The translations under genes and the position numbers were made by a program. Under the pieces are notes generated by a model. That model made no database searches. It was not told the DNA's origin and saw only the letters and a program-made list of their open reading frames with translations. From the IMG/VR virus record IMGVR_UViG_3300028388_001549, positions 1-44,833 of that record: a stretch of 44,833 bases of DNA; one strand, written 5' to 3'. Below, piece by piece: positions 14,680 through 30,514 of this stretch; position 1 is the first letter of the stretch, and each line of letters begins with the position of its first letter. This DNA comes from a virus.

Positions 14680-15297
14680 ATGGCTTTAAACTCACATATT
14701 CAATGGACGGACGCAACATGGAACGTCGCCATTGGATGCAGTAAAGTAAGCGAAGGTTGTAAATTCTGTTACATGATGCGAGACTTTGGCGAAGGCTCAT
14801 TCAAAGGAGGTGGCAGAAAAGACGAAAACGGTGAACAGATACCCGTCAACGGGACTGTCACCAGAACAAAACCATCGACATTCAACAAACCATTGGTTTG
14901 GCAGCGTCAAGGGAAAACGTGTGTTGACGGCTCACCGCTGAAAGTCTTCACTTCGTCTTTGACCGATGTATTTCACAAACAAATTGACAGCTATCGTGAC
15001 GAAATCTGGGACATCATCAGACAATGCCCTGATTTGATTTTTCAGATATTGACAAAGCGACCAGAACGAATCGCTGACCATCTTCCAGATGATTGGGGCG
15101 ATGGATGGGACAACGTTTGGATTGGGTGTACCATTGAGAATCAAAAGAACATTGACCGACTTGCTTGGTTTGAGACATTCAGCGCAAAGGTTAAGTTCGT
15201 CAGCTTTGACCGTCACGGGGGCAACATTCTTGATTTGCCTGAAGAATACAATTTTTTGAAGATTCGTCAATTTCCTGAATATGAGCGTCAAGTATAA
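14680..15297 (+). CDS. DUF5131 (Gp37/Gp68) radical-SAM-like protein, short C-terminus
   Basis: The 205-residue product is a clear DUF5131 protein: IQWTDATWNVAIGCSKVSEG, then a CX6CX2C cluster (Cys20, Cys27, Cys30) of the kind that can hold an Fe-S cluster, KVFTSSLTDVFHK, FQILTKRPERI and NVWIGCTIENQ. Family members usually continue into a FLSCEPLLGP-like strand and a GGESG block. Here VKFVSFDRHGGNI is followed by a short tail, and the next gene begins 17 bases before the stop, so the end appears cut down. The function of the family is not established to me. The leader TTCATCACTAAAATAAATTG is a variant of the common one. Confidence 0.75.
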   Translation: MALNSHIQWTDATWNVAIGCSKVSEGCKFCYMMRDFGEGSFKGGGRKDENGEQIPVNGTVTRTKPSTFNKPLVWQRQGKTCVDGSPLKVFTSSLTDVFHKQIDSYRDEIWDIIRQCPDLIFQILTKRPERIADHLPDDWGDGWDNVWIGCTIENQKNIDRLAWFETFSAKVKFVSFDRHGGNILDLPEEYNFLKIRQFPEYERQV

Positions 15298-15853
15298 ACC
15301 ATACAAGCACAACCCCCGAAAAATCAACAACAAGCAATTGAAGCAACTGGAAGACACGCTTCGACGCTTGGGTGATTTGTCTGGCATCATTTACAATCGA
15401 CGTTCCAAATCATTCATCGGGGGCAACCAGCGTTCAAAGACAATTGACTTTGATAAGTGTGAACGTCAGATAATTGAAGAACTGAAGAAGCCCGATGGTC
15501 AGGGAACGGTTGCATGGGGGTTCGTTATCTGGGGAGGTCACAAGTACAATTATCGGGAAGTAAGCTGGACACCGAAAATCGAGAAAGAAGCCAACATCGT
15601 CGCCAACAAGGGCGGCGGTGATTGGGATTTTGAAATACTGAAGGAACACTTCAAAGAAGACGACCTTTTGAAATGGGGATTCAAGCAATCAGAACTGACG
15701 TGGGTTGAAGGCGAAGCAAAGCAGTCATCAGCATCGGCAAGCGTTGAACCAATTTATCAGGTGGTCATCGACTGTTCAGACCTTTCGGAACAGGAACGAG
15801 CGTTCAACGAAGTCCAAAAATTAGGATTCAAATGCCGAGTTTTGAGTTTATAA
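15281..15853 (+). CDS. ParB-like nuclease-domain protein
   Basis: The 190-residue product has an N-terminal ParB domain: NPRKINNKQLKQLEDTLRRL, then GDLSGIIYNRR and FIGGNQRSK, the equivalent of the GxxRxxA/GGHQR motif. In phages such domains are often fused to a DNA methyltransferase; here none is present. The C-terminal piece YQVVIDCSDLSEQERAF ... GFKCRVLSL is typical of phage ParB proteins. It starts inside the DUF5131 gene end and overlaps the ATPase start, so these genes are coupled. Confidence 0.7.
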   Translation: MSVKYKPYKHNPRKINNKQLKQLEDTLRRLGDLSGIIYNRRSKSFIGGNQRSKTIDFDKCERQIIEELKKPDGQGTVAWGFVIWGGHKYNYREVSWTPKIEKEANIVANKGGGDWDFEILKEHFKEDDLLKWGFKQSELTWVEGEAKQSSASASVEPIYQVVIDCSDLSEQERAFNEVQKLGFKCRVLSL

Positions 15854-16515
15854 AATCCAGCACGATTGACCAGTCGTTCAGAAATGAATTGGTAAAGGGA
15901 CGATTCGACCTTGACATCAGCGAAGTCAAAGAGACGTTCAGCGGTTCAATCGACATCGAGAACAAAGAATGGAAAATCGGTGCCATCGTCGGAGCATCAG
16001 GAACAGGGAAGTCACAAATTGCGAATCATTGCTTTGGCGACTTATTCATCAATTCACGATTCGGTAAAAAGTCGGTCATTGACGAAATGCCGAAAGATGC
16101 TGACGTTGATGTGATACTGAAGAACTTCAGTCTGGTCGGGTTTGCTTCACCACCATCATGGTTGAAACCTTACAAGGTGTTAAGCCAGGGCGAACAGATG
16201 CGTGTTCAATTGGCGTATGCTTTGAGCCTTGACCGTGAATGCTTCATCTTCGACGAATTTACATCGGTCGTTGATAGAAATGTCGCAAAGACCGCCTGTT
16301 TGGCACTCAACAAAGCCATCAACAAGTCAGAAAAGCAATTCATCGCCGTCACTTGTCATCGTGACATACTGAAATGGCTGCAACCTGATTGGGTGTATGA
16401 CACCGACGAACAACGCTTTTTTTTTGCCAACACGAAAGACCAGTCATCGACCTTCATATCTATTCAGGCGCAAATCACGCTGTTTGGGAATTATTCAGGA
16501 AGTATCACTATCTGA
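15832..16515 (+). CDS. ABC-type ATPase, N-terminal part of an ABC-GNAT protein
   Basis: The 227-residue frame encodes a soluble ABC ATPase: Walker A GASGTGKS (54-61), signature VLSQGEQMRVQLA (116-128), Walker B CFIFDE (137-142), D-loop VVD and H-loop His176 in AVTCHRD. This is the phage/bacterial ABC family that normally runs on into a GNAT acetyltransferase in one chain. Here the frame reads FFF at a nine-T run (16417-16425), then drifts to an unrelated tail and stops. The GNAT sequence continues in the -1 frame. A -1 slip at the T run would give about 356 residues. A homopolymer error or mutation could produce the same picture. Confidence 0.8.
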   Translation: MPSFEFIKSSTIDQSFRNELVKGRFDLDISEVKETFSGSIDIENKEWKIGAIVGASGTGKSQIANHCFGDLFINSRFGKKSVIDEMPKDADVDVILKNFSLVGFASPPSWLKPYKVLSQGEQMRVQLAYALSLDRECFIFDEFTSVVDRNVAKTACLALNKAINKSEKQFIAVTCHRDILKWLQPDWVYDTDEQRFFFANTKDQSSTFISIQAQITLFGNYSGSITI

Positions 16516-16901
16516 ATCACACGCATCATAAAGCGGCGAACATCTATCTGGCGACGCTCAACGACCAACCCGTTGGGTTCTGTTCGGTGCTTCACTTCCC
16601 ACATCCAACGAAGAAGAAACACAAACGGATTCATCGACTGGTGGTGCTTCCAGATTATCAGGGAATTGGTGTTGGTAAATCGCTGTTGAATTACGTAGCT
16701 GAAGATTATCGAAAGCAAGGGTTCACCGTCTCAATCGTCACATCAGCGTTCAATCTGGTAATGGCATTGCAGAATAGCCCAAATTGGAATTGCATCAGAA
16801 AGGGAAGAACAGCCATCGGCAGGGGGACGGTACACAATACATCAAATCGGGCATCATCAGGGAACAGACGCATCACCGTCAGTTTTGAATACAAACTGTA
16901 A
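16401..16901 (+). CDS. GNAT acetyltransferase domain, -1 frame continuation of the ATPase
   Basis: This frame is open from 16401 (stop TGA at 16398-16400) to 16901 and has no ATG near its start. Reading on from the T9 run it gives ERPVIDLHIYSG, WELFRKYHYL, PVGFCSVLHFPHP, then the acetyl-CoA loop RLVVLPDYQGIGVGKSLL and the end RRITVSFEYKL, which match the acetyltransferase half of known ABC-GNAT proteins along its whole length. The first usable start, GTG at 16587, would remove the first part of the fold. Expression by -1 frameshifting from the ATPase is therefore the simplest explanation for an intact product. Confidence 0.7.
   Translation, partial: HRRTTLFFCQHERPVIDLHIYSGANHAVWELFRKYHYLNHTHHKAANIYLATLNDQPVGFCSVLHFPHPTKKKHKRIHRLVVLPDYQGIGVGKSLLNYVAEDYRKQGFTVSIVTSAFNLVMALQNSPNWNCIRKGRTAIGRGTVHNTSNRASSGNRRITVSFEYKL
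16417..16425 (+). other. U9 slippery run, candidate -1 frameshift site
   Basis: Nine T residues read as TTT TTT TTT in the ATPase frame and contain the heptamer U UUU UUU. The two frames overlap from 16401 to 16515, so a slip must occur in this window, and the run is the only good slippery site I see there. I did not find a convincing downstream pseudoknot by eye. Confidence 0.55.
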
Positions 16902-17379: not shown

Positions 17380-18516
17380 ATGATGAAACGACTTTTTTCA
17401 ATTTTACCACTTTTGTTGTTGCTGACATTTTCAATGCTGGCACAGCAACCAAGCGCACCACCTGATGAAACTGGTGACATCCATCTGATTCAACCTATCA
17501 TTGAAACGCCACCGATGTCGCAACGTCAGGCGAACAATTTTCGATGGTTGCAGACCTATCGAAATTGGGGCATCAAAAAGCTGGGCATCGACACCATCAA
17601 GCAGAATTACACAGGGCGAGGAATCAAAGTGTGTGTTTGCGATACGGGTGAACCGACACATTCATTATTGAAGCCTAAAACAACCGCATCAGCAAACTTC
17701 AGCTTCGACCAATCGGTCATCGACGGCAATGGTCATTCAACACACGTCGGCGGTATCATCAACGAGATTGCGCCAAGTGCTGACCTTTTGTGGGCGAAGG
17801 TGTTATCGAACAGCGGTTCAGGAAGCAATTCAGGCGTTGCCAATGGCATCAACTGGTGTCGCCAGCAAGGGGCAGACATCATCAACCTGTCATTGGGTGG
17901 TTCGCAGCCGTCATCGGCTATCAAAAGCGCAATTGACGCAAGCATCGCAGACAGCATCATCGTCATCGCAGCGGCAGGAAATTCAGGTCAAAGCGACACG
18001 GAAGACCGCATGGGCTATCCAGCGAAGTATGATGAAGTGATTGCCATTGGCTCAATCAATCGTGATTTGCTTGTCAGTTGGTTCAGTTCATCAGGCGACA
18101 ACGGTGATGTGGTCGCACCGGGCGAAATGATTCTTTCAACATGGCTGAACAACGAGTTCATTGTTTTATCAGGAACATCAATGGCAACACCATTCATTGC
18201 AGGGATGACCGCACTTCTTTTGGAGAAGAAAAACGAGCGCAACGGAATTGAACCGAAGTTCGAGCAATCAGCCAGCGACATCGCACCAACGGGGTATGAC
18301 CGATTTTCTTTTCACGGAATAGCAACGCCGAGGGTTTACGATGTCGTTCAGGACACCACCATCGTCGATGAACCAGACGACCCGATTGATGAACCAGATG
18401 AACCCGTTGTTGAGATACCGACCGAATGGCTGAAGAACAACTGGTATTTCTTGGTGATTGGTGTAGTCGTCATCATTGGTGGCGTTTTATTCTTTCGTTC
18501 ACGTAAAAAACAGTAA
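17380..18516 (+). CDS. Secreted, membrane-anchored subtilisin-like serine protease
   Basis: The 378-residue product has a signal peptide (MMKRLFSILPLLLLLTFSML), a subtilase S8 domain with Asp88 in VCVCDTGEP, His119 in GNGHSTHVGG, Asn201 in AAAGNSG and the nucleophile Ser267 in LSGTSMATP. An acidic Pro-rich linker follows (DEPDDPIDEPDEP), then a membrane span (FLVIGVVVIIGGVLFF) and a basic stop-transfer end RSRKKQ. The catalytic set is complete. The protease would face the periplasm or exterior, held by its tail. It is not near the capsid genes as maturation proteases are and has an export signal, so it more likely acts on host envelope proteins. Confidence 0.85.
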   Translation: MMKRLFSILPLLLLLTFSMLAQQPSAPPDETGDIHLIQPIIETPPMSQRQANNFRWLQTYRNWGIKKLGIDTIKQNYTGRGIKVCVCDTGEPTHSLLKPKTTASANFSFDQSVIDGNGHSTHVGGIINEIAPSADLLWAKVLSNSGSGSNSGVANGINWCRQQGADIINLSLGGSQPSSAIKSAIDASIADSIIVIAAAGNSGQSDTEDRMGYPAKYDEVIAIGSINRDLLVSWFSSSGDNGDVVAPGEMILSTWLNNEFIVLSGTSMATPFIAGMTALLLEKKNERNGIEPKFEQSASDIAPTGYDRFSFHGIATPRVYDVVQDTTIVDEPDDPIDEPDEPVVEIPTEWLKNNWYFLVIGVVVIIGGVLFFRSRKKQ

Positions 18517-29746: not shown

Positions 29747-30514
29747 ATGACATTAAAATTCAACGGTCACGTTCTCGAAATGTACGACAGTATTCAAGAA
29801 CTTCCAATCACACGCTTTCAGTCGTACAATTTGAATCTGTTGATTGACGGGGGCATCGGGTCAGACCTTGACGCATTCGACAAACACATCAATTCAATTC
29901 GTCAGCTTGTCGTTCGTGATGCAAATGCAGCACAAACGGAATTGACCAACCTTCAGCAAAACATTCGATTTATCATGTCGAAGACGAATCCAAAGCTGAA
30001 CAGTTTTGTCGTAATGATTCGGAAGATTGACGGTCGTGAAATCAAAGACGCTGATTTGACTGAAGATGGTATCGAAGCAATACTGAATGAACTTGGCAAA
30101 AAGAAACTGCCATTCATCAGCGCACGACGGTTTTTGAATGCTATTAAAAAAAAACTTGATACTGAATTTGAGTTCTTTTTTCCGAAGGTAGTGGACAGCG
30201 CAACGACCAAAGAGTTTTACACGCAACTGAAGCGACGAACGATATTGATACTTCAGTCGATAACCGAGAAGCGAGACTTCACAAAAGAGATTGCAGCGAT
30301 TGACGAATTTTTGATGTCTCGATTGAAGCCCAAGAACTATCACGGACGGGAAGGGCTGGAAGTCAAAATGATAAAAGGGTTTGAACAGACGTGTGTTCTT
30401 TTGAAGCAATACAACGTGTCGAACGAGCCAAGAAAGATGACGACGCTTGCCTATTATCAGGCATTGGAAGTCGTGAAAGAACAATTGAAAAAACAGTCTA
30501 AAAACAGACGTTAA
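29747..30514 (+). CDS. Pre-tape-measure protein (tail assembly chaperone position)
   Basis: The 255-residue product matches the family found directly before tape measure genes in Bacteroidota siphophages: LKFNGHVLEMYDSIQELPIT at the start, then SYNLNLLIDGGIGSDLDA. It is helical and charged later on. The position is that of tail assembly chaperones, which help wind the tape measure. A nine-A run (30146-30154) reads KKK in frame; slipping there would give a short product. The next gene follows at once. Confidence 0.6.
   Translation: MTLKFNGHVLEMYDSIQELPITRFQSYNLNLLIDGGIGSDLDAFDKHINSIRQLVVRDANAAQTELTNLQQNIRFIMSKTNPKLNSFVVMIRKIDGREIKDADLTEDGIEAILNELGKKKLPFISARRFLNAIKKKLDTEFEFFFPKVVDSATTKEFYTQLKRRTILILQSITEKRDFTKEIAAIDEFLMSRLKPKNYHGREGLEVKMIKGFEQTCVLLKQYNVSNEPRKMTTLAYYQALEVVKEQLKKQSKNRR

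Follow-up and report, generated by a model that had tools for sequence, protein, structure and literature searches.

The window analysed here is the whole 44,833-nt stretch of the IMG/VR virus record IMGVR_UViG_3300028388_001549, a record that carries terminase, portal and tape measure genes. Downstream of a DUF5131 gene and a ParB-like gene, the window encodes an ABC ATPase and a GNAT acetyltransferase domain in two different frames of the same strand (Table 1). The ATPase ORF matched ABC_tran (1.4e-9) and the -1 frame matched Acetyltransf_1 (GNAT; 2.2e-13) in Pfam. A single PHROG family, phrog_11143 (357 positions), spanned both halves in order, its positions 7-198 corresponding to the ATPase frame (9.7e-54) and its positions 196-348 to the -1 frame (2.7e-33) in the profile matches. 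The ORF positions and the Pfam and PHROG matches thus confirmed what an earlier note had proposed from the letters, namely an ATPase in frame 0 and a GNAT domain in -1 across a T9 run.

Table 1. Features of the ATPase-GNAT locus and its upstream neighbours (positions in the window)
Feature	Position	Strand	Basis or remark
DUF5131 gene, 17-nt overlap with the next gene	14680..15297	+	Pfam PF07505, 1.4e-39
ParB-like gene, 22-nt overlap with the ATPase start	15281..15853	+	phrog_620, 2.8e-14; phrog_9353, 4.5e-15
ABC ATPase ORF, frame-0 short form, 227 aa including a 29-residue tail	15832..16515	+	Pfam and PHROG matches
-1-frame TGA, bounding a slip on the upstream side	16398..16400	+	Sequence
GNAT acetyltransferase domain, -1 frame, no usable start	16401..16901	+	Pfam and PHROG matches
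Predicted T9 slip site	16417-16425	+	ATPase frame CGC TTT TTT TTT GCC, at the domain junction
Dual-coding stretch: short-form tail in frame 0, GNAT start (RP..YHYL) in frame -1	16426..16512	+	
Frame-0 stop TGA	16513-16515	+	Inside the codons of the conserved GNAT motif YHYL, as in relatives

The -1 frame was searched for ATG, GTG and TTG, and none was found before a GTG at 16587. The stop at 16398 and the lack of an ATG, both recorded in the earlier note, were thereby upheld and the lack extended to the other two start codons. Because this GTG is the first start, a separately initiated GNAT would lose about one third of the domain. The window GNAT contained no further stop or frame break, and the product sizes given earlier (227 aa for the ATPase-only protein, 356 aa for the read-through ATPase-GNAT product) were reproduced. 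T9 by itself is no rare motif, with two occurrences in the window against 6.8 expected; what goes beyond chance is its position at the domain junction and the slip sites kept there in relatives.

Relatives were collected from IMG/VR, GTDB genome contigs and named phages, and the frames of their domains were tested with profile HMMs. Both domains were found in 235 unique loci (window included); they lay in one frame in 171, while GNAT was in -1 in 60 and in +1 in four. The earlier statement that the family usually forms one fused chain was only partly borne out, as recoding signals turned up at this joint in fused members too (see below). Members of the -1 group included Lactococcus phage P335, Oenococcus and Streptococcus phages, Alicyclobacillus, many IMG/VR contigs and Bathyarchaeota-binned contigs. 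The bias of 60 to 4 would not be expected from random breakage. Rare A11 (one) or A8 (two) runs with GNAT in +1 were seen in L051, L097 and L171; these may be indel variants or reflect errors in sequencing. For the window's GNAT only two closely related loci were found, the one analysed belonging to the A10 class described below, and phylum-wide genome searches added few further members. Two loci (L286 and L289) aligned without the ATPase-GNAT junction, and L287 gave no ATPase-profile match on the + strand.

The longest run at the joint in the -1 group was T9 in 11 loci, T7 in 6, A9 in 14, A7 in 13, A10 in 1 and A6 in 2. Apart from the window, T9 or T7 stood at the matching position in 16 loci of this group, and no T8 or T10 was found at the joint among its 17 T-run loci. 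The comparison with sister phages that the earlier note had suggested thus showed relatives keeping both the T run and GNAT in -1. An A or T run of at least seven was present at the joint in 46 of the 60 -1 members, as against a mean of 17.9 and a maximum of 26 under a synonymous null in which codons were drawn randomly from each gene's own synonymous usage and shared ancestry was ignored. Slip sites other than runs also occurred in the -1 group, with GGTTTTTC in six members, TTTTCTTTT in three and GCA AAA AAG at the joint of Enterococcus phage 9184. Existing annotations of L006, L007, L172-L176 and L183 name a 'putative ABC iron siderophore transporter' or an ABC transporter followed by a truncated downstream protein, and drop the GNAT N-terminus.

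Unexpectedly, two further signals were found at the joint of the fused members. An A10 run was present in 58 of the 171, mostly as CAA AAA AAA AAT followed by AGA or AAR, and a -1 slip in this class hits a stop immediately (51 of the 52 loci examined). Among the 113 fused members lacking A10, 79 carried GGAGG/GGGGG-NNN-CTT/GTT, the layout of the RF2 (prfB) +1 site (mean 0.78 and maximum 4 in 2000 draws under the same synonymous null). Across these 79 loci the leucine codon at the site was CTT in 63/63 (8.8 expected) and the valine codon GTT in 16/16 (1.5 expected), and the amino acids preceding CTT/GTT varied (RR, WR, RG, TRG). In a hold-out set, a later separate scan that had no part in defining the pattern, SD-NNN-CTT/GTT was present in 63 of 75 unique loci (null 0.53) and the leucine codon was CTT in 58/58. 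When the remaining 34 fused loci outside A10 and the strict pattern were inspected by eye, 18 had CTT but no strict SD, and 10 had the SD with a different codon. At the window's own junction the prfB-like SD-NNN-CTT/GTT pattern was absent.

A tail frame, which is +1 relative to GNAT, was open from the joint and stopped inside the YHYL codons in every class. It was open in 223/223 loci (about 122 expected) and ended at the YHYL stop in 221/223 (about 168 expected). In the non-redundant set, internal stops were found in 0/195 loci for the tail frame and in 159/195 for the third frame. The tail frame is the default reading in the -1 class; in the SD-CTT class a +1 shift would lead into it, and in the A10 class the loss of one A can do so. 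We infer that a short protein of ATPase plus tail has been conserved as a product of the gene. Beyond openness and length the tail sequence is not clearly conserved: its identity exceeded the synonymous null, but the third frame showed a partly similar excess, and a constraint on the tail peptide is not claimed.

In the textbook division, ribosomal frameshifting uses a slippery heptamer with a downstream structure, and polymerase slippage a run of at least nine A or T. At short runs and TTTTCTTTT sites the downstream structure was more stable than that of shuffled sequences (mean z -1.65, n=21), whereas runs of at least nine had a mean z of +0.15 (n=23; Mann-Whitney P=7e-5 against the short runs, ancestry ignored) and the A10 class had no excess structure (mean z -0.13). 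T7 and A7 relatives combined the heptamer with a hairpin a few bases downstream, and P335 and the Streptococcus phages combined GGTTTTTC with CCCCCAC, pairable with GTGGGGG further on. In the Bathyarchaeota-binned set the A7 copies carried an invariant stem (GGCCGCCC...GGTGCGGC) and the A9 copies had none; covariation of this hairpin is uninformative because the outer stem is invariant. The contrast between short and long runs in these sequences matches the textbook division. Downstream of the window's T9 no hairpin was found (z +1.5 to +1.7).

From these observations, we consider it probable (roughly 0.87) that programmed recoding at T9 yields two proteins from the gene at 15832-16901. The case is built on features of the sequence, namely the layout, the missing GNAT start, the slip sites conserved at the junction and the conserved open tail frame with its stop, and with signals in hundreds of relatives the frame change at the joint looks deliberate. 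The default reading would give the short protein of ABC ATPase plus tail, and a one-base slip into -1 would give the ATPase-GNAT fusion. Programmed slippage yielding both products, as first put forward in the earlier note, is therefore strongly supported by the slip sites that relatives keep at the joint.

Two mechanisms had been offered for the shift. The hairpin of the shorter runs is missing at runs of at least nine; RNA polymerase slippage is therefore more likely in the window than a ribosomal -1 shift, and the slip would consist mainly of the polymerase adding one U to give a U10 mRNA. Nine A or T is the usual threshold, a length at which many bacterial polymerases slip and at which Thermus dnaX does so (PMC1088944), and the window's run is of this length. 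The ribosomal alternative, in which two tRNA-Phe re-pair one base back on U UUU UUU without any polymerase slippage, appears possible but rather unlikely. A heptamer of the form X XXY YYZ does sit in frame within T9 (T TTT TTT at 16419-16425), the T7, A7, P335 and Streptococcus sites with their pairing partners have the form of ribosomal signals, and U9 could act as a ribosomal slip site without a hairpin, which counts against the polymerase route. The absence of a hairpin in the window and in the other T9, A9 and A10 members, together with the run length, speaks for polymerase slippage.

Readings without programmed recoding fare much worse. The run length in the window comes from one assembly, with the nearest relative only 53% identical, and homopolymers are error-prone; the outliers L097 (A8) and L051 (A11) look like variants that arose in this way. 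An error hiding a T8 or T10, and with it a single open frame, is nevertheless very improbable, since the same frame relation and in-phase run lengths recur in many independent contigs, the split is also present in isolate phages (P335, Oenococcus, Streptococcus), its direction is biased 60 to 4 and the fused members carry independent signals. Changes of T-run length in the DNA that toggle the fusion within a population have a small chance of being the explanation: nine T's can mutate at a high rate and one A11 and two A8 variants occur among relatives, but T8 and T10 are missing from the T-run loci, and neither the hairpins of the short runs nor the SD-CTT sites are expected under DNA switching.

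Independent initiation of GNAT near the ATPase stop by translational coupling would agree with the P335 and Oenococcus annotations, which start a separate ORF with a 4-nt overlap with that stop. Such starts lose the conserved N-terminal part of GNAT and the first usual start in the window is the GTG at 16587, which makes coupling hardly credible. A decayed gene, in which a chance frameshift killed the GNAT half, would suit annotations that list the two halves separately or overlook GNAT. It can be practically dismissed, as conservation of GNAT in the -1 frame extends to the junction itself, ahead of the frame-0 stop, and the window's GNAT has no other stop or frame break. The sequencing error or broken gene that the earlier note had held out as the alternative is thus very unlikely, with relatives sharing the split and the slip sites at the joint.

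A FastTree phylogeny was built from 173 non-redundant loci with the junction left out. SD-CTT members were found in both of its main parts, and A10 members fell mostly in one cluster near -1 members with A runs. Parsimony required at least 11 changes between -1 and the rest, a rough count in which some forks are weak and a few rows assigned to other -1 sites are doubtful. It is fairly likely that this phage and mobile-element family keeps an output of ATPase-plus-tail and ATPase-GNAT and swaps the decoding at one joint, between a ribosomal -1 shift with hairpin, polymerase slippage at runs of at least nine and an RF2-like SD-CTT +1 shift, with the default product reversed between classes.

Bathyarchaeota-binned loci (L095-L099, L111-L128, L160) were nearly all split -1, with A7 plus a hairpin or A9 without one, and their genomes held many copies each (15 domain matches in G006). 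Their archaeal assignment rests on binning; if truly archaeal, they would join the very few known archaeal -1 cases (PMC8211752).

The gene immediately upstream was ParB-like in 246 of 283 family loci, and it is so in the window. The AlphaFold model of the fused relative L004 (pLDDT 86.9, pTM 0.76) contained an ABC nucleotide-binding domain, with the best Z score of 15.0 to MJ0796, and a GNAT fold (1y9k, Z 14.2). The GNAT fold of Mom-type DNA acyl modification was thus found both in the window, by Pfam, and in the L004 model. A comparative study (PMC7824862) names ABC ATPase-coupled GNAT, exemplified by pT24, as a system predicted by Iyer, Aravind and colleagues to acyl-modify DNA bases, and a DNA-modification role of the family is accordingly a published prediction. 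The domain pair is identical, pT24 is in our locus set and the ParB-like neighbour is present in most loci; by way of difference, the excerpted text of that paper makes no mention of recoding. The complex would acylate a base of the phage's DNA and make contact with that DNA through the ParB-like protein encoded upstream, and the short form may set the number of GNAT domains in the ATPase dimer, by analogy with tau and gamma of DnaX. In Tenacibaculum phage pT24 an in-frame TGA (L009:3236-3238) lies inside GNAT, and the annotation treats the parts on either side as two genes. A formyltransferase-like gene is located beside or near the ABC-GNAT gene in L179, L181 and L288 (in L288 by reading of the protein sequence), which might be relevant to the acyl group.

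Elsewhere in the window, the gene at 29747-30514, immediately preceding the tape measure gene (phrog_8914), contains an A9 run at 30146-30154. Its -1 reading stops after one codon and its +1 reading after 11, and A10 stands at the matching place in L370 (63% aa identity), the sole relative found; a slippage-made short form in the tail-chaperone slot is a candidate. The window also encodes, at 17380-18516, a subtilisin-like protease (phrog_3677), which is unusual in a phage; its sequence has an apparent signal peptide and, at the C-terminal end, a hydrophobic helix.

We found no description of recoding in the ABC ATPase-GNAT family in the literature, our coverage of which was incomplete. To our knowledge, few bacterial and phage genes need recoding, and SD-CUU +1 shifting is known mainly from prfB. 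Hundreds of mostly phage loci with recoding signals at one domain joint, and several mechanisms exchanged there, offer a natural experiment in which ribosomal and polymerase slippage replace each other. Recoding would explain the mis-annotation of members as split ORFs or iron transporters, and it suggests that the proportion between ATPase and GNAT is important to an enzyme predicted to modify DNA.

The closest parallel is dnaX, in which one gene gives a short ATPase and a long ATPase-plus-domain form (gamma and tau); E. coli achieves this with a ribosomal -1 shift, and Thermus with polymerase slippage at A9 (PMC1088944, PMC5009743). It differs in that the window gene is a phage ABC ATPase-GNAT, that RF2-like +1 sites also occur in its family and that the default reading in the window is the short form. 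The fused relatives, not the window, resemble prfB in the order SD, 3 nt, CUU, as in GGGGG TAT CTT TGG of L302. The prfB site itself reads AGGGGG TAT CTT TGA; the fused relatives have a sense codon (TGG, CGG, AGG) in place of the stop and their +1 product is the shorter protein. Unlike for prfB, we know of no autoregulation for them. In tail assembly chaperones the direction of the frameshift varies between phages. Like these chaperones (gpG/gpGT), the family is a phage gene with a conserved frameshift that would yield a short and an extended protein (PMC5009743). ABC ATPase-GNAT differs in being an enzyme gene rather than a structural one, and in using several signal types at one joint.
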